Source: Candidatus Villigracilaceae bacterium
GTDB taxonomy: Bacteria > Chloroflexota > Anaerolineae > Anaerolineales > Villigracilaceae
Length of the DNA: 64,000 nucleotides
Direction of reading: 5' to 3'
Assembly (NCBI GenBank): GCA_026645935.1
Contig: JAPKMP010000014.1
Location: forward strand, 1 to 64,000
The notes beneath the pieces are model-generated. The model saw only the letters and a list, made by a program, of their open reading frames with translations. It searched no databases and was not told the DNA's origin. Within the stretch, counting starts at the first letter, position 1. Each line of letters opens with the position of its first letter. The translations under genes and the position numbers were made by a program. Positions 3,241 through 14,406 of the stretch are shown here, piece by piece.

Positions 3241-3624
3241 ATGTCTGACAAACTCGCAAAACTCGTGGATGAACTTTCCACCCTTTCCGTTCTCGAGGCG
3301 GCTGACCTCGTGAAAATGCTCGAAGAAAAGTGGGGCGTTTCCGCCGCCGCTCCTGTGGCTGTTGCCGCCGTCGCCGGGGCTGGCGCTGCCGCCGCCGAAC
3401 CCGTAGAAGAGAAGACCGAGTTCGATGTGGTCATCAAGGATGCAGGCGCCAAAAAGATCGATGTCATCAAGGTCATCCGCCAGTTGACCAGCCTCGGTCT
3501 CGGCGAAGCCAAAGCGCTCGCCGAAGCCGGTGGCTCCAAGGTCCTCACTGGTGTGGGCAAGGAGGCCGCTATGGACGCCAAGAAGAAGCTCGAAGAAGCC
3601 GGCGCCCAGGTCGTCGTCGAGTAA
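3241..3624 (+). CDS. rplL: 50S ribosomal protein L7/L12
   Basis: L7/L12 is the multicopy stalk protein that recruits translation factors. The 127 residues show the N-terminal dimerisation helices ([20 protein letters not shown]), an Ala/Val-rich hinge (about 38-55), and the C-terminal factor-binding domain with [29 protein letters not shown] lies 10 nt before the ATG. It ends the ribosomal block and is followed by a clear terminator. Confidence 0.97.
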
Positions 3625-3644
3625 ACCCTTTCAAAAATGCAAGC

Positions 3645-3675
3645 AAAAGATGGCTTTTCAAGAGCCATCTTTTTG
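3645..3675 (+). terminator. Rho-independent terminator of the L11/L10 block
   Basis: AAAAGATGGCT, a short loop, then AGCCATCTTTT and further T residues: an 11-bp stem with a T tract 20 nt after rplL. It separates the ribosomal genes from the ubiquitin-like operon. Confidence 0.92.
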
Positions 3676-3720
3676 TTTAACCAGTACCCATTTCCCATTC
3701 GCGTTGAAAGGGGAAGTTCC

Positions 3721-3754
3721 TATAATTCTCGCTAGTGGTCTGACCACCAGACCA
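3721..3754 (+). promoter_or_regulatory. -10 box and FadR-type operator of the ubiquitin-like operon
   Basis: A consensus -10 hexamer TATAAT lies at 3721-3726; no convincing -35 is seen at 17-nt spacing (the TTGAAA at 3704 is only 11 nt away). Immediately downstream, at 3735-3747, is the perfect 13-nt palindrome GTGGTCTGACCAC, whose core TGGTCTGACCA fits the operator class of FadR-type GntR regulators. A second, overlapping inverted repeat pairs TGGTCTG (3736-3742) with CAGACCA (3748-3754). A protein bound here would cover the transcription start, so repression is expected. The adjacent gene encodes a GntR-type DNA-binding domain, suggesting autoregulation. Confidence 0.8.
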
Positions 3755-3761
3755 AAATATT

Positions 3762-5417
3762 ATGAAAATCGAACGAGTTTCCCACAAACCCCTTGCCGAG
3801 ACGGTCGCAGGTGAGCTTGCCGCTTCTCTCTTGAACGGGAGTCTGACTCCCGGCACACAACTCCCGCCTGAGCGCGAGTTGATCGTCAAATTCGGCATCA
3901 GCCGGGCCACCCTGCGCGAAGCGCTCAAGATGCTCGAAAAACACAGCCTGTTGGAGTCGCGCCCGCACGTCGGCTGGTTCGCACGCGAGGTCAACGAATC
4001 GAACCTGACCCGGGCGAAGGAACTGGCTGGAAGGAATGGGAGACAGGCTGAAAGTCCGGCTCGAAGCGAGCCGCCCACGAGTCCGATCCGGGTGCCCATC
4101 GCTTCCGATAAGCCGATTCGCATCCCAAATTTAAATAAGGACCGCCTCGGGACGTTCGACTTCATCTCGTGGTGGGATCGTGATAAAGTCCAAAATGCAA
4201 GAGTCATGGTCATCGGCGCAGGCGCGCTTGGCAACGAGGTCATAAAAAACCTGGCTTTGATGGGTGTGGGGCATATTTTCATTGTGGATTTCGATAAGAT
4301 CGAAATGGCGAACTTGAGCCGCTCAGTTCTCTTTCGTGAAACGGATAGCAACCGCAGTAAAGCGGAAATCGCCGCTGCGCGCGCGAAAACCGTCAATCCA
4401 CAGGTGCATGTTCAGTATGTGAACGGAGATGTTACATCCAAAGTCGGGCTGGGAATCTTCCGCCGCATGGACGCGGTCATCGGTTGTCTTGATAACCGCG
4501 AGGCGCGCCTGGCGGTGAACCGCTTTTGTTACTGGATAAACAAACCCTGGGTGGACGGCGCAATCCAGGAACTGCTTGGTTTGGTGCGCGTCTTTGTGCC
4601 GGGTCAGGGCGCATGTTATGAATGCACCCTGACCGAACAGGCACTGCGAGATTTGTCACTTCGCTATTCATGCCCATTGCTTGCCCGGCAAAACGTTCTC
4701 CTGGGTAAAGTTCCGACCACGCCGACCATCGCCTCGATCATCGGCGCGATGCAATCGCAGGAGGCGTTGAAATTGATCAACAGCATGCCTGTCGAGCCGG
4801 GCAAGGTGACTCACTTTAACGGCATGGTCAACGAAATGCACACGACAGCCTATGTACCGCGCGATGATTGCGAGTCCCATTGGACGTATGGGACGATCAC
4901 AGAACTTCCCGCCCGCGCCGAACGGACGACGCTCGACGATTTGCTCCGCATCGCCTGCGCGGACCTCGGGCTGAATGCCGTAATCGAACTGGACCAGGAA
5001 CTGGTTACGAAGTTCGAATGCCCGAACTGCAAAACGGTCGAGGAAGTATTGCGCCCGCTCGGCGAGGTCTCGTTGGAAGCCGGGCATTGCCCGAACTGCG
5101 GCATTTTGCGCGAAGCTTTTCTGACCCACGTCATCACCGGCGAAGAAAAATTCCTTCATCGCACGCTGGCGAGCGTCGGAGTGCCGCCCCTGCATATCAT
5201 CCGCGCTCACAACGGCGAGGAATACCGCTTTTATGAACTGACGGGCGATCTCGATCAGGCTCTTCATTTCCATGATTTCGAGACACGGATCGGACTCGAA
5301 GACAAGAAAGAGATGCGCATCCGGATCAAAGAAGCGCCGCTTCATATCAAAGATATAAAAGCAGCCCCGGTCTTGCGGGTAGGCTCGGGACGAATCCGCC
5401 TACGGGACGAGAAATGA
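3762..5417 (+). CDS. GntR-type DNA-binding domain fused to ubiquitin-activating E1-like enzyme
   Basis: This 551-residue fusion should adenylate the C-terminus of the ubiquitin-like protein and take it onto a cysteine. Residues 5-75 are a GntR/FadR winged helix (LNGSLTPGTQLPPERELIVKF, then ISRATLREALKMLEKH). After a Pro/Ser-rich linker, residues 130-365 form the E1 adenylation domain: nucleotide motif GAGALG (152-157), D176 and D178, N184/R187, K200 and D244. The ACYECTL segment (284-290) followed by C304 resembles the region around the catalytic cysteine of eukaryotic UBA2/UBA3; C304 is my candidate. The C-terminal extension (370-551) carries two CPNC knuckles (420-423, 443-446), probably a zinc ribbon. 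It is the first gene of the operon and its stop is one base from the next start. A simple MoeB/ThiF sulfur-transfer role is unlikely given E2, RING and JAMM neighbours. Confidence 0.92.
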   Translation: MKIERVSHKPLAETVAGELAASLLNGSLTPGTQLPPERELIVKFGISRATLREALKMLEKHSLLESRPHVGWFAREVNESNLTRAKELAGRNGRQAESPARSEPPTSPIRVPIASDKPIRIPNLNKDRLGTFDFISWWDRDKVQNARVMVIGAGALGNEVIKNLALMGVGHIFIVDFDKIEMANLSRSVLFRETDSNRSKAEIAAARAKTVNPQVHVQYVNGDVTSKVGLGIFRRMDAVIGCLDNREARLAVNRFCYWINKPWVDGAIQELLGLVRVFVPGQGACYECTLTEQALRDLSLRYSCPLLARQNVLLGKVPTTPTIASIIGAMQSQEALKLINSMPVEPGKVTHFNGMVNEMHTTAYVPRDDCESHWTYGTITELPARAERTTLDDLLRIACADLGLNAVIELDQELVTKFECPNCKTVEEVLRPLGEVSLEAGHCPNCGILREAFLTHVITGEEKFLHRTLASVGVPPLHIIRAHNGEEYRFYELTGDLDQALHFHDFETRIGLEDKKEMRIRIKEAPLHIKDIKAAPVLRVGSGRIRLRDEK

Positions 5418-5418
5418 T

Positions 5419-6303
5419 ATGAATGCCCGAATGTCCGTTCATGCTGCCGCCATGACAAGCGATACCTCAACCTCCTCGTATTCCCCAGGATTCGTTCGCA
5501 GACTGGTGGGATGCCTGATGTTCGTTCTGATGATTGCGGGTTTCATGGCGTTGATCCAAAGGTATCAGGAAAACCTTACTCCGTTCCTGATGATTATCTT
5601 TGCCGTTCTCGCCGTCGGACTTGCGTCTGGTTCCGCACCCCGCGCCAGTTTCTACGACCGGCCCGGTTGGATTTCGTTCCTGGTCATGCTGATCCTTTTA
5701 CCGATCGGTATGCTCGCCCTGGGTTTTTTTACAAACTGGCAGATTGGTATCGGTCCGCTCGAACCCTGGCTCGACGGGGTTTTGGATCATGAACAGATAG
5801 TTCAACTTGGAAGCGCGTTGATCGTGGCTGTAATATCCCTCGCCGCCTGGAGGAGAAAACCCCCAAAGGTCGGGCGCGAGTCATCGGTATCTCATCAATC
5901 GTTGAATATGAGGGAATCGGTGAAGGTTCCGGTCCCTGTCCGTTCCAATGGAAATATTCGTTTGTTGCGCGGGCGCGCCTCGAACGCGCCGATTTCTGCC
6001 CGCATAGGGAATCTGTTCCCCCGCATCAAGTCTTTGCCGGGATTCCGTTGGGGAAGGCGCGACAGACCTCTTTCGCTATCCTTCAAGAACAAGGGAAGCC
6101 GATTGGGATATCAGCGATCCAGACGCAAACCCAACGTGCAGGTCTCATTGTACGAAGTACACCGCTGTCCCTATTGTCTGGAGGAAGTCAAACTGACCGA
6201 TCCGCGCGGCGTGAAAAAATGCGAGATTTGCAATACCGTGCATCATGCGGACTGCTGGGATGTTACAGGCGAATGCCAGGTCCCGCACCTCAATACCTTG
6301 TGA
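5419..6303 (+). CDS. Four-TM membrane protein with C-terminal RING-like finger (E3 candidate)
   Basis: A 294-residue protein with four hydrophobic segments (about 25-48, 53-71, 84-106, 125-144), a basic cytosolic linker (145-245), and a C-terminal zinc finger. The finger is C250-x2-C253 ... C268-x2-C271 ... H276-x2-C279-W ... C286 ... H290, a cross-brace layout of the prokaryotic RING type. By position it is the natural E3, holding the E2 at the membrane. Its ATG follows the E1 stop by one base, so the two are translationally coupled. No enzyme residue is expected in a RING. The alternative is a non-E3 zinc finger, but the neighbouring E1, E2, Ubl and JAMM genes favour E3. Confidence 0.85.
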   Translation: MNARMSVHAAAMTSDTSTSSYSPGFVRRLVGCLMFVLMIAGFMALIQRYQENLTPFLMIIFAVLAVGLASGSAPRASFYDRPGWISFLVMLILLPIGMLALGFFTNWQIGIGPLEPWLDGVLDHEQIVQLGSALIVAVISLAAWRRKPPKVGRESSVSHQSLNMRESVKVPVPVRSNGNIRLLRGRASNAPISARIGNLFPRIKSLPGFRWGRRDRPLSLSFKNKGSRLGYQRSRRKPNVQVSLYEVHRCPYCLEEVKLTDPRGVKKCEICNTVHHADCWDVTGECQVPHLNTL

Positions 6304-6316
6304 ACGGAGAATCGAC

Positions 6317-7165
6317 ATGTCCGACCTGAATGTAACCATAGTCCTTCCAAGCGGGGGCGCGCGCGCAGCGGAGATTCCCGACGACGTGCCGGTTCGCGAT
6401 TTGATGCCTGAGTTGGCTTCGTTATTGGAACTTCCCACCGTCGGCCCTGATGGACGCCCGATGGGATACCGGCTCGACAGCAAAGCCCTCGGCAGGGAAT
6501 TGAAAGAGAACGAGACTCTTTCCGCAGCGGGAGTTCCTGAAAACGACCGCCTCATGCTGACCGCAGACATCACAGCCGGAAGCGTCGTTTCTGTCGCCGG
6601 GAGCCCGCGCATGAGACGCCTGAAAAACGATTTCGAACTCATGCAGGAGATTGCCGCCCGCAGCGACTTGATCACTTTCAAGGCTGTGGATGCCCGCCCG
6701 GGAGTCCCACCCGAACGCTATATCGTGACCTTCGCCTGCAAGAGCATCATCGGCATCGATTCATCGGGCAGACCAAAATATGGAAACAATCATCAAGTGG
6801 AGATCTACCTGCATACTCAATACCCGCAGCGCTGGCCGGGCATGAAGTGGATGACTCCGATATGGCACCCCAACATCAATCACCTGAACGGGAGCGTGTG
6901 TATCGACGCTGCCTGGTGGACCGCAAGCCGTTCTCTGGACCGTCTGGTCGTCATGTTGGGGGAAATGCTCCAGTGGAAGAATTTTCACGACGACCCGACC
7001 AAACCTCCGTTCCCGTGGGATGCGGATGCGGCGCGCTGGTCCCGCGAATATCGCAAGAAACATCCCAATGAGTTCCCTGTGGACCGTCGTGAACTCCTCC
7101 GCCCGGAACGAGTAAAGATAAAACCGGTGGAGAAGAAGAAATCGCCGGTGATCAAATTGAAATAG
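6317..7165 (+). CDS. Ubiquitin-like domain fused to E2 conjugating enzyme (UBC fold)
   Basis: I start at ATG 6317 (GGAGA just upstream); the longer frame from 6245 would overlap the RING gene and lacks a site. Of 282 residues, 1-88 are a YukD/EsaB-type ubiquitin-like domain ending TAG, and about 95-255 a UBC domain. The E2 hallmark is complete: W-H184-P185-N186, then the active-site C195 in GSVCID, followed by the WW pair, as in eukaryotic E2s. The tail (262-282) is lysine-rich. The N-terminal domain matches the separate Ubl encoded next at 68 of 88 positions. Cytosolic; it should receive Ubl from the E1 and work with the RING protein. Confidence 0.93.
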   Translation: MSDLNVTIVLPSGGARAAEIPDDVPVRDLMPELASLLELPTVGPDGRPMGYRLDSKALGRELKENETLSAAGVPENDRLMLTADITAGSVVSVAGSPRMRRLKNDFELMQEIAARSDLITFKAVDARPGVPPERYIVTFACKSIIGIDSSGRPKYGNNHQVEIYLHTQYPQRWPGMKWMTPIWHPNINHLNGSVCIDAAWWTASRSLDRLVVMLGEMLQWKNFHDDPTKPPFPWDADAARWSREYRKKHPNEFPVDRRELLRPERVKIKPVEKKKSPVIKLK

Positions 7166-7222
7166 TCATCGTTGCGCGCTTACAAAGTTTTGTATTTGAG
7201 AATTAGTGAAAAGGAGAAAAAT

Positions 7223-7489
7223 ATGTCCGATATACCTGTCACCCTGGTTCTACCCTCCGGGGGCACCCGCACCGCCGAGGTTCCCGATGATGTAGTCGTG
7301 AAGGATCTTATTCCGGAATTGACAACGTCCCTGGAACTGCCCACCACTGGACCCGATGGAAGACCGATGTCCTATCGGTTGGACAGCAAGGCGCTTGGTC
7401 GCGAACTGAAGGAGACCGAAACGCTCTCCCAGGCGGGAATCCCACAAAACGACCGGTTGATGATGACGGCCGACGTAACCGCCGGTTGA
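7223..7489 (+). CDS. Free ubiquitin-like modifier (YukD/EsaB-like)
   Basis: An 88-residue protein starting at ATG 7223, which has the best ribosome site of the operon (AAGGAG, 6 nt upstream), consistent with a modifier needed in excess. The pattern VTLVLPSGG, PDDVVVKDL, LGRELKETETL and NDRLMMTAD matches the YukD/EsaB ubiquitin-like family. It ends at a single glycine (VTAG-stop), so the conjugation-competent end would be made without trimming. It is 77 percent identical to the E2 N-terminal domain. The mature-gene reading from 7172 is rejected because of the ribosome site and the match to the E2 domain. Confidence 0.92.
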   Translation: MSDIPVTLVLPSGGTRTAEVPDDVVVKDLIPELTTSLELPTTGPDGRPMSYRLDSKALGRELKETETLSQAGIPQNDRLMMTADVTAG

Positions 7490-7495
7490 CCTTCA

Positions 7496-7532
7496 AGGCG
7501 GGCTGCTCCAGCTCGCATGGAACAGCCCGCCT
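7496..7532 (+). promoter_or_regulatory. Intergenic hairpin between modifier and protease genes
   Basis: AGGCGGGCTG (7496-7505) pairs perfectly with CAGCCCGCCT (7523-7532), with a partly paired internal loop. It begins 6 nt after the modifier stop codon and is followed by ATTTAAA, not a T tract, so it is better read as an mRNA-stabilising or partial-termination hairpin that keeps the modifier more abundant than the downstream protease. Confidence 0.7.
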
Positions 7533-7554
7533 CATTTAAACACTGGATCATCGA

Positions 7555-8211
7555 ATGACTGGTAACGGAATTCGCCTATCCACCCCCATAAGCGCGAGAC
7601 CGATACGAGCCTGCATGCCACTGGCTCGGTCGAAGCGCTGGGTCTCGATCCACGAAAGCGATGGAAGGCAACCGCTTGTCAACGTCTTTCTATCGCAGCC
7701 CGCATATACCCGCATCCTCATTCATTCGACCGGCGAATTGGACGATGAAGTAGGCGGTGCACTGGTTGGATTGTGGTGCATGGATCGTGATTCCGGCTCG
7801 CAGTTCGTGGTGGTCCAGCACATGCTTCCCGCCCGGCACACCCGGCAGGGTAGCGTCTACCTGACTTTCACGCAAGATACCATCGTAGATTTCCATGATG
7901 AGATCGATAGGAATTACAGTGGAAAGCGGATCGTCGGCTGGTATCACACCCATCCGCGCATGGGAATTTTCCTTTCCCATTTTGATACATTCCTCCACAA
8001 CAATTTCTTTCCTGAACCCTGGCAGGTGGCACTGGTGGTGGAGCCTCATAGTTCAGTTGCCGGATTTTTCATCCGCCAGGAAGGCGGACATCTTGACCCC
8101 TCTCGTTACTTCGGGTTTTACGAACTGAATGGAAACCTGGGCAGGAGCATGGTGAATTGGCGAAACCTGCTTGGCGACGAGCAGGAAGTGCAAGGAGTTG
8201 ATTATGAGTAG
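7555..8211 (+). CDS. JAMM (MPN+) metalloprotease, deubiquitinase-like
   Basis: A 218-residue JAB1/MPN-domain protein predicted to remove the ubiquitin-like modifier from targets, as Rpn11-type enzymes do. The JAMM zinc site is intact: E65 in DDEVGGALVG, H131-T-H133-P, and S141-x2-D144. The glycine-rich EVGGALVGLW strand matches the family. No signal peptide, so cytosolic. The start has no obvious ribosome site and follows the hairpin, suggesting low translation; the alternative Met21 would also keep the fold. Its stop overlaps the next ATG (ATGAGTAG), so the FHA gene is coupled. Confidence 0.92.
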   Translation: MTGNGIRLSTPISARPIRACMPLARSKRWVSIHESDGRQPLVNVFLSQPAYTRILIHSTGELDDEVGGALVGLWCMDRDSGSQFVVVQHMLPARHTRQGSVYLTFTQDTIVDFHDEIDRNYSGKRIVGWYHTHPRMGIFLSHFDTFLHNNFFPEPWQVALVVEPHSSVAGFFIRQEGGHLDPSRYFGFYELNGNLGRSMVNWRNLLGDEQEVQGVDYE

Positions 8212-9061
8212 AAGAATGCGAACCTATTTTTATGCAGTCCTCGGCGCTATCGGCGGTTTGATCGGTTGGCAGGTCAGCGACAACCTCGGGCTTTCAATCG
8301 TCGCAAATCTATACCTGAGCGAAGTTCTTGTCGGAGGATTGATCGGCCTGGTCATCGGCTTGTTCATCGGCATCACAGAAGGCTTGCTCACCCAAAACCT
8401 GGTGCAGGCGTCAAAGTCCGGTCTTTTTTGCGCGTTTCTTGGCGCTCTTGCTGGGGGCATCGGGTTGCCGCTCGGTGAATTCCTCTTTCAGGCAGTCGGT
8501 GCGGGCATCCTGGGCCGCGCACTCGGCTGGTCGGTCTTCGGGTTGATGCTCGGTCTCGCCGAAGGCATCACTGGCAAAAGTCAGGCGTGGAAGGGAATGT
8601 TGGGCGGTCTGATCGGAGGCGCACTCGGCGGTGTTTTGCTCGAAAGCGCGCACAACTGGCTTGCCGATCCGCTCACCGGCAAAGCTGCAGGTCTCGTATT
8701 TCTGGGCGCATCGGTCGGGGCATTTATTTCCCTCATCGTTGTACTGCTTGCGCGCGCCTGGCTCGAGGTCACTTCTGGCAAACTCAAAGGTACCGAGTTC
8801 ATCCTTGATAAATTTATGCGCTCCGGTCATCCTGCGGTCGCCATTGGGAGTTCTCCGCTCAAATCCGAGATTGTCCTGCCCGATCCCGACATCGCCCCGC
8901 AACATGCCATGTTGACGGGGGATGGCAGAAGCTTCACGCTGAAGGATATGAGTCTGGCGGGCACATACATTAACGGAAAAAAGATTCAGGCCACGCATCT
9001 CTCGAACGGGCAAAAGATACGCATGGGCAACACCGAGATGGTCTACCATGAAAAGAGGTAG
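8204..9061 (+). CDS. Polytopic membrane protein with C-terminal FHA domain
   Basis: A 285-residue protein starting at ATG 8204 (AAGGAG 6 nt upstream), overlapping the protease stop. Residues 8-186 hold Gly-rich hydrophobic helices (about six), and about 205-285 an FHA fold with IGSSPLKSEIVL, QHA (233-235) and GTYINGKK. FHA domains bind phosphothreonine, but two usual binding residues look changed: the Arg of the GR turn is Ser216, and the VSR-x-H motif reads IAPQH. So it may bind an unphosphorylated or different partner. It is in the operon and could localise the conjugation machinery to the membrane; this is inference. Confidence 0.85.
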   Translation: MSRRMRTYFYAVLGAIGGLIGWQVSDNLGLSIVANLYLSEVLVGGLIGLVIGLFIGITEGLLTQNLVQASKSGLFCAFLGALAGGIGLPLGEFLFQAVGAGILGRALGWSVFGLMLGLAEGITGKSQAWKGMLGGLIGGALGGVLLESAHNWLADPLTGKAAGLVFLGASVGAFISLIVVLLARAWLEVTSGKLKGTEFILDKFMRSGHPAVAIGSSPLKSEIVLPDPDIAPQHAMLTGDGRSFTLKDMSLAGTYINGKKIQATHLSNGQKIRMGNTEMVYHEKR

Positions 9062-9062
9062 C

Positions 9063-10202
9063 ATGAAGACGAATCCCCTTCGCCTCATTCTAAACTTTGT
9101 CCTTGCCGGGTTTCTTGCAATGTTCCTTACGCCGATGGCTTTCGCGCAGGACGATTTCCAGATCCGCATCACACAGGTGGACAACTCCAAATTCCCGAAT
9201 GTGACTGTCTATGTTTCGGTGACGAACTCCGCCGGTGAGCCGGTGGGTGTGGACCCCACGTCCATCCAAATTTCCGAGAACGGCGAGCCGATGCAATCGG
9301 TGGATATCCGCGGTGGCGGGGAAAGCGGGGAAGGCCAGGCAGACCCTCTGACCACCATGTTGGTGATCGACATCTCCGGCAGTATGGATAAAAACGGCAA
9401 ACTCGATGCCGCTAAAGACGCCGCCAAGGCCTACGTGACGCAAATGCGCGCAGGTGACCAGGCCGGGTTGATCACCTTCGATACCAAGACCTATTACGTC
9501 CAGCAGATCACGACCGATAACGCTGCGATGATCGCCGCCATTGATGGACTGGTCACCGGCGGCGATACCAGCATGTACGACGCCCTGATCGAAGCGGAAA
9601 CCGCGCTCGCAGGCATCGAAGGGCGCAAAGCCATCATCGTCCTCGCGGACGGACTGGATAACCACAGCGCTGCCATGCCCGACGACGTCATCGCGGCGAT
9701 CGGTCCGAGCGGGTTGACCATCTCCACAATCGGCTTTGGCGACCCCGGCACCACCGCCCAAGCTGGGCTGGATGAACCAGCCATGAAATTCCTGGCGGAA
9801 AAATCAGGCGGCATGTACAGTTTCGCCAACGACCCGCAGGCGTTGACGGCATTATATGAACAGTACGGCCGCGCTCTGCAAAGCGAATACGCCATTACTT
9901 ACGTTTCCCCGTCCACCCTGCGCGATGGCGTGAATCGTAATTTGACGGTGTCGATCTCGTCTGTCGGTGTCTCCACGGAAGGAAACTACAACCCGGGCGG
10001 CGTATTGCCGGAAGTGGCGCAAAGCTCGTGGACGTTGTTCGCCATGATCCTCGGCGGCCTGCTTCTGCTGTTGTTGATTCCCATCGTCATCTCACGCGGA
10101 GGCGATCTTTTCGGCGGTTTTAAAGGATTTAAACGTAAGGGAAGGATCAAGTTGTCTCAAACTGCAACCGGAAGCAGGAAACCACAAATCAAAATTAAAT
10201 AA
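9063..10202 (+). CDS. Exported VWA-domain protein with C-terminal membrane anchor
   Basis: A 379-residue protein; ATG 9063 is preferred over 9048 because AGAGG precedes it and the result is a classic signal peptide cut after AFA (residue 28). The VWA domain spans about 97-290 with the MIDAS motif D103-I-S105-G-S107, plus a Thr loop (GGDTSMYDAL). A TM helix at about 324-344 leaves a short basic tail ending RKPQIKIK, which resembles the E2 tail KSPVIKLK. Last gene of the operon, two nt after the FHA gene, followed by a terminator. VWA proteins mediate metal-dependent adhesion; its link with the ubiquitin-like pathway is by context only. Confidence 0.85.
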   Translation: MKTNPLRLILNFVLAGFLAMFLTPMAFAQDDFQIRITQVDNSKFPNVTVYVSVTNSAGEPVGVDPTSIQISENGEPMQSVDIRGGGESGEGQADPLTTMLVIDISGSMDKNGKLDAAKDAAKAYVTQMRAGDQAGLITFDTKTYYVQQITTDNAAMIAAIDGLVTGGDTSMYDALIEAETALAGIEGRKAIIVLADGLDNHSAAMPDDVIAAIGPSGLTISTIGFGDPGTTAQAGLDEPAMKFLAEKSGGMYSFANDPQALTALYEQYGRALQSEYAITYVSPSTLRDGVNRNLTVSISSVGVSTEGNYNPGGVLPEVAQSSWTLFAMILGGLLLLLLIPIVISRGGDLFGGFKGFKRKGRIKLSQTATGSRKPQIKIK

Positions 10203-10203
10203 G

Positions 10204-10237
10204 AAAAAGCGGCGCACATTTCTGTGCGCCGCTTTTT
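10204..10237 (+). terminator. Strong terminator ending the ubiquitin-like operon
   Basis: AAAAAGCGGCGCACA, loop TTTC, TGTGCGCCGCTTTTT: a 15-bp perfect stem with T run directly after the VWA stop. The A run on the other side makes it usable for lexA from the opposite strand as well. Confidence 0.95.
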
Positions 10238-10281
10238 GATTAATAAATCTCAGGGATGTTGGGTTCGGAGTCTTGAAGTTT

Positions 10282-12670: not shown

Positions 12671-13768
12671 ATGTCCAAGACAATCAATGCGGGAAGAACG
12701 CCCAAGATTGAGATCGAGTCCATCGGCGGCGACCTCAGTCTCGTAGGTTGGGAAGGGGACGACATCCTTCTCAAAGCCGATGACGATGAAATGCGCGTCA
12801 GCCAGGACGGAGACTTTGTGCAGGTATCATGCGATGACGATCTTTCGATACGTGTGCCGAAAGGCGCGAACGTGAAGATCTCCAATATTGGCGGCGACGC
12901 TTCGATCCGCGGCGTGATGGGCGGGATCGAATTGATCAGTGCCAACGGCGACCTTTCGATGCGGGACGTGAATTCCGTGACCATCGAAACGGTTCACGCG
13001 GACTTCAGCCTGCGCGGTGCGAAAGGGAGTTTGTCCATCAGGAAAGCGGATTCGGACGTTTCCATCCGCGATGTGGATGGGAATGTAACCCTCGACTCAA
13101 TTTCTGACGACCTTGCCCTGCGCGATGTGCGCGGCAATGTGACCGCCAATGTGGGCGAAGATGTCGTGATGTATCTGAATCCCCGTCCTGGCAATTCGTA
13201 TAACGTCAATGCCGGGGACGATATCCTGCTAGTGATGCCCCCGAGGGCGAACGCCGTACTTTCGATGAGCGGTGACGAAATCCATATGGATTGGGACGGC
13301 GTTGAAAACGTCGACGACTCCACCAATCGAAGCGTTACGCTTGGTGACGGTTCGGCGCAGATCAATCTCAGCGCGGGCGGCGACATCCGCGTCTCGAACC
13401 GGTCGGATGCGGGCGACTCGGCGGAGGATTTCGGCAATTTCGCCGGGATGGGCATGGACTGGTCCGGCTTTGGCGAACGCATCTCCCGCCGCGTGGAGCA
13501 GGCGACCGAACGGGCTCAGCGCAAGATCGAAGCGGCAAACCGGCGCATCGAACAGAAAGTCCGTGCGGCGGAAAAGCGCGGCCGTGGAAAAGTTGCTCTT
13601 GGCATTGGTCGTTGGAATTGGGATTTTTCGCCCAAGGGCGTTCCAGTTCCGCCCAAGGCGCCGGTTTCAGATGAAGAGCGCCTGGCAATCCTGAAGATGC
13701 TTCAGGATAAGAAGATCACCGCGGAAGAAGCGGAAAAACTTTTAGCGGCATTGGAAGGAGGCTCGTAA
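12671..13768 (+). CDS. DUF4097-type beta-repeat protein with C-terminal LiaX/YvlB-like motif
   Basis: A 365-residue protein dominated by repeated short beta strands with a D-x-S-(I/L/M)-R periodicity (GGDASIRGV, NGDLSMRDV, HADFSLRGA, DSDVSIRDV), typical of DUF4097 beta-helix/adhesin-like domains (about residues 8-230). A charged coiled segment (270-310) follows, then a C-terminal helical motif ERLAILKMLQDKKITAEEAEKLL (about 336-358). No signal peptide. Three nt after the DUF2089 gene, and its stop overlaps the next start. Function unknown; related proteins sit with envelope-stress (LiaX/YvlB) systems. Confidence 0.8.
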   Translation: MSKTINAGRTPKIEIESIGGDLSLVGWEGDDILLKADDDEMRVSQDGDFVQVSCDDDLSIRVPKGANVKISNIGGDASIRGVMGGIELISANGDLSMRDVNSVTIETVHADFSLRGAKGSLSIRKADSDVSIRDVDGNVTLDSISDDLALRDVRGNVTANVGEDVVMYLNPRPGNSYNVNAGDDILLVMPPRANAVLSMSGDEIHMDWDGVENVDDSTNRSVTLGDGSAQINLSAGGDIRVSNRSDAGDSAEDFGNFAGMGMDWSGFGERISRRVEQATERAQRKIEAANRRIEQKVRAAEKRGRGKVALGIGRWNWDFSPKGVPVPPKAPVSDEERLAILKMLQDKKITAEEAEKLLAALEGGS

Positions 13769-14406
13769 TGTCTTCTGAAGAGCGCAGGAAAATTCTTCAA
13801 ATGGTTGCGGATGGAAAGATCAGCGCGGAAGAGGCGGCGACGCTGATGCGCGCGCTCGACGAACCGGGGGAGGAATCAGATTCGACGGAACCGGAGGTCA
13901 TCGAGGTCGGACCCGTGACCGGCGGGGAAAGAAGCGATGCTCCTGAGATCGACGAAGTCCGCATGAGAGCGCATCGTTTTTCCGGAGCCTTCCTCTGGAT
14001 CGGCGTCTTGTTGACCGTCTTCATTGCCTGGTGGATGTTCAGCGTCCAGCAAAACTCCGGGTTGAATTTCTGGTTTTATTGCCTGGGCATGCTGCTTACG
14101 CTCGGCATCATGTTGATCGCGCTTGGCGCGGGAAGCCGCACATCGAGGTGGCTGTATGTGAATGTGGACCGGACCCGCTCGAAAGACCAGGATGGTCCTC
14201 GTAGAATTTCGCTGGCGTTTCCGCTGCCATTGGGTTTTGCGGCATGGTTCATCCGCACATTCGGCAGCCGCATCGAAGGTTTGAAGAATACGAATGTGGA
14301 CGATGTGGTGACGGCGATCTCGCTGGCGAAGAATGTTAGAGACCCGCTGATCGTGCATGTGGATGACTCGGACAGCGGCGAGCATGTGCAGGTCTTTATA
14401 GGATAA
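13768..14406 (+). CDS. Two-TM membrane protein with N-terminal LiaX/YvlB-like motif
   Basis: A 212-residue protein. Residues 4-30 carry the operon's shared motif (ERRKILQMVADGKISAEEAATLM), then an acidic linker (31-63), two TM helices (about 72-92 and 101-121), and a soluble C-terminal region ending in a ferredoxin-like pattern (DPLIVHVDDSDSGEHVQVFIG). That ending resembles the tail of the protein at 15732 (TDEEDGEHVEIFVE). TAATG overlap with the preceding gene indicates coupling. I do not recognise a named family. Confidence 0.7.
   Translation: MSSEERRKILQMVADGKISAEEAATLMRALDEPGEESDSTEPEVIEVGPVTGGERSDAPEIDEVRMRAHRFSGAFLWIGVLLTVFIAWWMFSVQQNSGLNFWFYCLGMLLTLGIMLIALGAGSRTSRWLYVNVDRTRSKDQDGPRRISLAFPLPLGFAAWFIRTFGSRIEGLKNTNVDDVVTAISLAKNVRDPLIVHVDDSDSGEHVQVFIG

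Follow-up and report, generated by a model that had tools for sequence, protein, structure and literature searches.

A stretch of 64,000 nucleotides (here called the window), comprising positions 1 to 64,000 of contig JAPKMP010000014.1 of a Candidatus Villigracilaceae bacterium (Chloroflexota; assembly GCA_026645935.1), carries an apparent operon for the conjugation of a ubiquitin-like protein (Ubl). Its seven genes lie on the + strand between 3762 and 10202 and encode, in this order, an E1 with a GntR head (3762..5417), a RING-type E3 candidate with transmembrane (TM) segments (5419..6303), an E2 with an N-terminal Ubl (6317..7165), a free Ubl modifier (7223..7489), a JAMM/JAB protease (7555..8211), a membrane protein with an FHA domain (8207..9061), and a VWA protein with a TM segment (9048..10202). 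Seven closely packed genes had been described here in a first-pass annotation, and the positions, strand, gaps, and overlaps all hold: E1 and RING are separated by 1 nucleotide (nt), RING and E2 by 13, and Ubl and JAMM by 65, while JAMM and FHA overlap by 5 and FHA and VWA by 14. The starts of E2 (ATG, 6317) and FHA (8207) are our choice. For the free Ubl the ATG at 7223, with AAAGGAGAAA before it, was preferred to the TTG at 7172 given by the open reading frame (ORF) tool, which was judged less likely.

Counts in relatives are based on a scan of named-species genomes that yielded 431 confirmed relatives, of which the best 80 were kept, all from Chloroflexota lineages by title. The conserved synteny in Chloroflexota that the annotation had proposed as a check is found, with E1-RING-E2-Ubl-JAB-FHA-VWA on one strand in 68 of the 80 loci; 12 are without one or more genes, and 11 of these end at a contig edge. 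Since gene order and catalytic residues are both kept in relatives, the operon is, as far as sequence can tell, not a chance grouping. The relatives include strains named as isolates (Pelolinea submarina MO-CFX1 and Leptolinea tardivitalis YMTK-2), and Leptolinea sp. HRD-7 is also among those kept.

By Pfam, the E1 combines a GntR helix-turn-helix (HTH) head (8.8e-19; residues 11-73) with a single ThiF stretch (3.4e-54), which corresponds to a ThiF/MoeB-like adenylation domain at residues 135-369 that includes C304. Residues G152, G154, G157, and C304 are invariant in 54/54 aligned E1s, as are the Zn-ligand cysteines C420, C423, C443, and C446 within the UFD-like C-terminal domain. A profile of these 54 E1s matches eukaryotic E1s (UBA7, 2.9e-37), ThiF, UBA5, and MoeB, and separately matches the heads of PdhR (8.9e-15) and the FadR family, with PdhR nearest to the head. 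The transcription-factor fusion first noticed on this E1 recurs on 69 of 70 complete E1s, the exception (L113) starting at a contig edge by position. No Pfam match to a FadR-type C-terminal effector domain was obtained in E1, where ThiF occupies its place. The AlphaFold model has a mean predicted local distance difference test score (pLDDT) of 78.8, with values under 50 at the linker (93-118), around C304 (298-309), and in the tail (504-551). In fold it is closest to MoeB (Z 29.5, root-mean-square deviation [rmsd] 3.5, 234 aligned) and ThiF (Z 29.2, rmsd 2.6, 234 aligned); the eukaryotic E1 9dqb_B aligns over model residues 132-499, through the UFD (Z 27.7, rmsd 4.2, 307 aligned).

The operon promoter has a -10 box TATAAT (3721..3726, + strand), directly 3' of which lies TGGTCTGACCACCAGACCA (3736..3754, no strand), a putative GntR/FadR-type operator of the form TGGTCTGACCA-CC-AGACCA that is expected to cover the transcription start. 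The -35 element is weak in the window and TTGAC-like in many relatives. The operator was counted in 68 of 81 loci, those with a called start and 160 bases upstream. Within the 160 bases before E1, a TGGT-N3-ACCA palindrome is present in 55 of the 68 (0.2 in shuffled sequence; 0/272 in E1 coding windows). A pattern of middle stringency matches 59 of the 68 (shuffled 1.4); a looser one, over 520 bases, reaches 66, but shuffled sequence then gives 10.2. In the consensus of this region, a TATAAT-like box is followed by tGGT.ta.TGGTCTGACCAccATACCA, mostly about 30 bases before the start codon. Over the 4.3 Mb genome the long form of the operator has one perfect match, the 11-base core alone not having been scanned genome-wide. 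The only other match to the long pattern, with two mismatches, was rejected as a second operator, as in its stretch (L170) it reads as a hairpin stem.

The site is kept at some phylogenetic distance. In L082, whose genome is related at the level of the phylum only, the exact TGGTCTGACCA follows its own TATAAT, and in L211, from another family of the class, TGGTCTGACCA stands inside a longer perfect palindrome. The strict operator is absent from all four relatives examined whose E1 has no GntR head (L083, L084, L208, and L209), and the looser pattern is also matched by GGTGCAACT before the GntR-less E1s of L208 and L209. Operators of the FadR subfamily, that of PdhR among them, are described as TKGT/ACMA, in which 3 nt separate GT from AC, and an additional half-site is often present (PMC4494728). 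Both the GntR HTH and the TKGT-N3-ACMA operator of this subfamily are found here at the level of sequence. With a PdhR-like head on the enzyme and a site that matches the FadR-subfamily consensus before its gene, the two appear to be matched. E1s of the MoeB/ThiF type form homodimers, and a palindromic site would therefore suit this E1. As the site immediately follows the -10 box and spans the expected start, E1 probably also represses its own operon. The self-regulation proposed in the annotation gains support in this respect, since most of the relatives examined have a matching operator at the promoter of this very operon.

The third gene matches both YukD (1.1e-11) and UQ_con (5.8e-11), and its product comprises a YukD-like Ubl (residues 1-88) and a UBC domain with HPN at 184-186 and C195. 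HPN and the active-site Cys are present in 81/81 E2s, and in sequence the solved structures closest to this protein are eukaryotic E2s of the E2-25K/UBE2K type (best 1.4e-9). A fold search with the Ubl-E2 AlphaFold model (mean pLDDT 77.8, predicted template modelling score 0.56) listed only Ubl matches, at residues 1-87, and the UBC assignment is therefore by sequence. By fold, EccD Ubl domains come closest to the fused Ubl (Z 11.9, rmsd 2.0, 80 aligned), with ubiquitin and ISG15 within 1 Z (~11-12). The free modifier encoded by the fourth gene (YukD, 6.5e-10) has 88 residues, is acidic (isoelectric point 4.4), and ends TADVTAG. Residues 86-88 of the E2 protein (T86-A87-G88; 6572..6580, + strand) read Thr-Ala-Gly (TAG) exactly where the free modifier ends. 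This TAG is kept in 81/81 fused Ubls, 79 of which fit T-x-D-x-TAG while L156 and L166 read SADITAG; the next residue is A, G, or S, apart from a single K, and model residues 87-92 have a pLDDT under 50. Free Ubl ends could be read in 77 of 81 loci, as in three the contig ends before any free Ubl and one is cut; 75 stop at TAG, L145 adds GR, and L165 adds A.

The fifth gene product (JAB, 3.6e-8) contains E65 and HTHP-x6-S-x2-D (H131, H133, S141, and D144). The complete JAMM motif occurs in 76/77 proteins, the remaining one being contig-cut, and the nearest solved relatives are Rpn11 (2.8e-6), then AMSH/CSN5 types. An archaeal JAMM protease removes the C-terminal extension of pro-ubiquitin and also cuts a linear ubiquitin-GFP fusion (PMC5654768). 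Given this processing of ubiquitin fusions and the conserved TAG junction, the JAMM protein is predicted to mature and release Ubls, and the Ubl fused to E2 is probably cleavable after TAG, by analogy. Some relatives have a second JAMM-like gene within the operon (L211, 8745-9158; L147, L162, and L165), in which PRVRIKL, GRIKL, VRIKLK, and IRIKL, copies of the terminal motif treated below, occur in the C-terminal region.

The RING protein has the four hydrophobic segments that were originally read as a four-TM E3, a basic linker, and a C-terminal prokaryotic RING at residues 247-286, whose metal-ligand pattern is present in 79/80; the last is contig-cut. Together with the Pfam matches, C304, HPN, C195, and the JAMM residues bear out the annotated set of E1, E2 with fused Ubl, RING, Ubl, and JAMM with membrane partners. 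These partners, described as FHA and VWA membrane arms, are both present (FHA, 4.3e-13; VWA_2, 7.5e-17) and co-conserved. Canonical FHA domains that bind phosphothreonine do so with the Arg of GR and the Ser of SR-x-HA. Aligned to GarA, the FHA domain of the window has GS in place of GR and APQHA in place of SRRHA. The scoring pattern covered 60 of 75 FHA proteins and missed 15; the canonical Arg is replaced in 60/60, and the Ser in 54, being kept in 6. Phosphothreonine reading by this domain is doubtful, because the Arg and mostly also the Ser are replaced, and the annotated FHA arm calls for correction in this respect. The VWA protein has a signal-like N-terminus, D-x-S-x-S, one C-terminal hydrophobic segment, and a tail with KGRIKL and a terminal IKIK; from the signal-like N-terminus and the single C-terminal segment, this tail would be placed in the cytoplasm. 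D-x-S-x-S is absent from 7 of 71 called VWA proteins, six of which have it in the matched segment, and L118 is a partial match.

Three features go beyond the first-pass annotation: the operator, a TAG junction kept where Ubl and E2 are fused, and a motif common to the ends of four proteins. The E1, E2, and VWA proteins end in short alternating hydrophobic-basic strings, which in the window are GRIRLRDEK (5388..5414, + strand) for E1, VIKLK with the motif IKLK (7151..7162, + strand) for E2, and QIKIK for VWA; the JAMM protein starts with GIRLS. The motif was counted in complete proteins (E1, 70 of 79 found; RING, 78/80; E2, 80/81; JAMM, 76/77; FHA, 72/75; VWA, 61/71), and the counts with a relaxed pattern drop one or two more that have masked bases. 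A four-residue pattern occurs in 61/70 E1 tails (shuffled 7.5), 77/80 E2 tails (8.5), 55/61 VWA tails (6.7), 29/76 JAMM proteins within the first 30 residues (3.1), 17/78 RING linkers (12.1), and 35/72 FHA tails (7.2). The relaxed form, [IV][RKH][LIMVF], is found in 66/70 E1 tails (shuffled 24.3), 79/80 E2 tails (22.4), 58/61 VWA tails (17.9), and 54/75 JAMM proteins within the first 20 residues (5.2), and its 59/71 in FHA tails (18.3) stem from IRMG-like letters inside the FHA domain. It is present in 1/76 Ubls (shuffled 16.1), 18/80 E2 bodies (51.8), 46/75 JAMM middles (42.3), and 70/70 E1 middles (62.3), a long region.

At the very C-terminus, the strict motif occurs in 67/72 E2, 47/69 VWA, and 26/71 E1 proteins, and is absent from RING (0/64), FHA (0/51), JAMM (0/58), and flanking ORFs (0/456), of which 6/456 have the loose form. 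For this count, ORFs were relabelled by match: six strict positives among 467 "flank" ORFs are VWA genes, and five labelled Ubl are E2 ORFs. The Ubl genes, with 88 residues, are too short for it. The terminal motif is read as a candidate docking peptide, with FHA and Ubl as the members that do not carry it. The E1 tail, which also holds copies of the motif, is disordered. The E2 tail of L160 (gene 7001-8032) holds five copies and ends NSRIRLK, and the looser motif is found at the C-terminus of three of five second JAMM-like genes.

In its five core components the operon belongs to a known kind. Neighbourhoods of E1, E2, RING, JAB, and YukD genes in prokaryotes were reportedly predicted by Burroughs, Iyer and Aravind in 2011. 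The sequence features of this kind are all found in the window, namely an E1 with its motif and Cys, an HPN E2, a RING, a complete JAMM, and a Gly-ended YukD-like modifier. The prediction reportedly shares with the window the five components in one operon, the YukD-like modifier, and the HPN-type E2; the window appears to differ from it in the GntR head with operator, the TAG fusion of Ubl and E2, the FHA and VWA membrane proteins, and the terminal motif. Judged from sequence, three traits make the operon a new variant within this kind: the E1 paired with a fitting operator, the fusion at TAG, and the motif at the protein ends. An operon of Caldiarchaeum subterraneum encodes a parallel set of ubiquitin, E1, E2, and a small RING protein, with an Rpn11-like JAMM by which the ubiquitin precursor is processed, although the ubiquitin has a di-Gly end and the description consulted mentions no GntR head, Ubl-E2 fusion, FHA, or VWA (PMC5654768). 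Bil (BilABCD) likewise has Ubl, E1, E2, and JAB protease in one operon, but it is described as having a BilA with two Ubls, an E1 with an inactive and an active adenylation half, and a CEHH-type E2 (PMC11354881). On these three features (tandem Ubl, two adenylation halves, and CEHH E2) identity with Bil was rejected, since the window operon has one free Ubl of 88 residues, one adenylation domain, and an HPN E2, plus RING, FHA, VWA, and the GntR head. With GntR regulators of the FadR/PdhR type (PMC4494728), the system shares the HTH head and a TKGT-N3-ACMA operator with extra half-sites, and it differs from them in that an E1 enzyme replaces the usual effector/dimerisation domain.

Considered together, these features make it likely that the operon specifies a Ubl conjugation cascade operating at the membrane and governing its own synthesis, with E1 as the operon repressor. 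From the anatomy, residue conservation, synteny, operator, TAG junction, and terminal motif, all of them read from the sequence, we infer the biochemical steps as well as the dimerisation, sign of regulation, cleavage, docking partner, and targets. E1 would adenylate the Gly end (...TAG) of the modifier and take the modifier onto C304, after which the UFD-like domain would pass it to C195 of E2. The membrane-anchored RING protein would direct transfer from E2 to lysines on or near the membrane, and the JAMM protein would remove the modifier from its targets. The same protease is probably active on the Ubl-E2 fusion as well, which it would cleave after TAG to give a second modifier and a freed E2, and it probably trims the few modifiers that have extra residues after TAG. 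The short ends of E1, E2, JAMM, and VWA, which resemble beta-strands, may dock onto one shared partner, for which the FHA membrane protein and the acidic Ubl are candidates. An E1 dimer would set two GntR heads on the palindrome over the start, so that the amount of E1 or its loading with Ubl would set expression. A more specific picture, which we hold only tentatively and put at somewhat under an even chance, is that E1 as its operon's own transcription factor reads the charge or supply of Ubl, that an IRLK-like terminal code brings E1, E2, and JAMM together with a VWA sensor at the membrane, and that a second modifier is cut from its own E2. The cellular role is possibly membrane protein control or defence.

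Several observations weigh against this reading. The modifier ends in one Gly rather than Gly-Gly, and the RING match to Prok-RING_1 (1.2e-4) is below the curated cut-off, at 22.4 versus 29.1 bits. Across eukaryotic E1s, the E1 model aligns over about 300 residues with an rmsd of 4 to 8, for which reason the UFD assignment of the C-terminal domain is suggestive. The active-site stretch 191-193 of the Ubl-E2 model has a pLDDT under 50, and its tail is left at low confidence with no confident docking, so that binding of Ubl by the tail motif in cis gains no support from the model and was dropped as an explanation; a partner in trans is still conceivable. The fusion is not universal, as Ubl and E2 are separate genes in G556 (L207), with the Ubl ending TAG-RQL, and in G070 (L082) the E2 match starts after the Ubl part. 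A strict sigma-70 scan found no full promoter within 3560-3800, and L163 and L165 have, in place of the standard operator, another palindrome (TGGTAT...ATACCA). The motif is not purely terminal, since the four-residue pattern is present in 37/61 VWA bodies (shuffled 9.5), apparently owing to a Q[VI]RI-like string where the VWA ectodomain begins, and with the relaxed pattern the RING linker shows no enrichment (31/78; shuffled 25.8). In L168 (genome G780), FHA and VWA are not beside the operon, with 6.3 kb of contig left. Finally, the best 80 are the nearest relatives, which share the fusion, and their figures say nothing on remote ones.

The fused Ubl is open to another interpretation. It may never be released and instead serve as a built-in regulatory or docking domain whose TAG is kept for structure, an alternative to which we give a substantial but minority share of belief. 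The entire fused Ubl is highly conserved, not the TAG alone, and the fusion is found in all 80 loci kept as the best of the 431; against this, TAG is invariant (81/81) while the following residues vary at a pLDDT under 50, and in G556 this Ubl has a gene of its own, whose product ends TAG-RQL. The regulatory role could also differ: the cascade would conjugate Ubl as proposed, while the GntR head activates the operon or merely tethers E1 to DNA, with no repression. An operator and a GntR head would suit any role in DNA binding, and the sign of regulation is not in the sequence, but a site that follows the -10 box at once and covers the expected start has the geometry of a repressor site, which makes activation or tethering unlikely. 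The same cascade might also act in anti-phage defence like Bil or Bub. Ubiquitin-like systems in defence are known, and the operon is patchily present at rplL-lexA within the genus, yet it adjoins ribosomal-protein genes, and PADLOC gives partial E1 and JAB matches only. The E2 has no match in 50,697 phage records and one weak 28% match in 72,556 plasmids, on which carriage by phage or plasmid was rejected, in a search that did not extend to surrounding mobile genes; defence is accordingly rated improbable as the role.

Two further alternatives replace conjugation altogether. That E1 and Ubl form a sulfur-carrier or cofactor pair of the MoeB/ThiF kind, with accessory genes, would agree with the top structural matches by Z (MoeB and ThiF, 29.5 and 29.2), but an E2 with active-site Cys, a RING, and a JAMM are co-conserved with them, the genome has another full ThiF-family gene (1.8e-80), and the modifier has no Gly-Gly end, so that we consider this very improbable. 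It is harder still to credit that the modifier is a YukD component of type VII secretion and that the operon serves secretion: Pfam does class the modifier as YukD-like, and EccD Ubl domains are the closest folds to the fused Ubl, but no WXG100 match was found in the genome (98.67% complete) and no FtsK/EccC-type domain among the seven genes. Tagging linked to a proteasome was also rejected, as PF00227 (20S-type/HslV) has no match in the genome, while control rings were found in 10 of 14 genomes. Repression by E1 within a membrane-working conjugation cascade is thus the reading that we retain.

What the window contributes is a complete and widely conserved bacterial E1-E2-RING-Ubl-JAMM cascade with eukaryote-like catalytic residues. 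We know of no enzyme-repressor of this E1 kind in any ubiquitin-like system, and literature searches returned none among the matches listed. If E1 is the repressor, modifier activation and transcription would be directly linked. Since the operon is present in strains named as isolates, the old prediction becomes directly testable. The two modifiers would leave different tryptic remnants, so that conjugation and processing of the fusion could be read in one mass-spectrometry experiment.

The operon lies between housekeeping genes. Upstream ORFs were read by eye as secE-nusG-rplK-rplA-rplJ-rplL, with lexA and corA downstream on the other strand. Among 30 lexA loci examined in the genus, rplL is about 70-960 bases from lexA with no operon gene between in 22, a VWA gene is at the junction in 6, and neither rplL nor VWA is within the stretch in 2. 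As the rplL-lexA junctions carry either the VWA gene or no operon gene, the block is, by this sequence comparison, present or absent as a unit. G003 (L185) has the junction without the operon, yet the operon is on another contig of the same genome. Between rplL and the operon lies a hairpin (3645-3673), which the scan calls terminator-like on the minus strand only. In G780, FHA-like genes are found in six stretches (L171-L176) away from conjugation genes, with a VWA-like gene alongside in four; their adjacency there suggests that FHA-VWA forms a separate module.

The reach of the E2 depends on the search. Near genomes gave matches in 16/61, two of them distant (G015 and G036); across the phylum, 36/400 genomes matched, many via the YukD-like Ubl only; and at class level an E2 relative at 1e-20 was found in 63/397 genomes, 30 of these at 1e-130 or better. 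Among 27 stretches from the first E2 searches, 18 hold all seven genes in order, including L074, in which frames are broken in three genes; L071 is contig-cut, and the remaining eight comprise different systems, stretches in which only a Ubl matched, and L086, where no match reached the cut-off. The distant matches in the same genus, L075 (G015) and L076 (G036), represent a different system; L075 has an E1 without a GntR-head match, a RING-like match, and two E2-like and two JAB-like matches. In another family of the phylum (L087, L088, and further f41 genomes), YukD-like Ubl matches fall inside longer open frames of about 300-600 residues, and no further conjugation component was matched in the L087 and L088 stretches. 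The GntR-less relatives in G200, G424, G655, G676, and G611 (L083, L084, and L208-L210) share with the window operon an E1, a Ubl ending VTAG, an E2 close by, and JAMM; they differ from it in that the E2 is unfused, there are two JAMM genes, and no FHA or VWA match was found in the stretches examined. In L083, two small RING-like proteins, recognized by eye at 12673-13776, lie beside the GntR-less E1-Ubl-E2-JAB set with its two JAMM genes.

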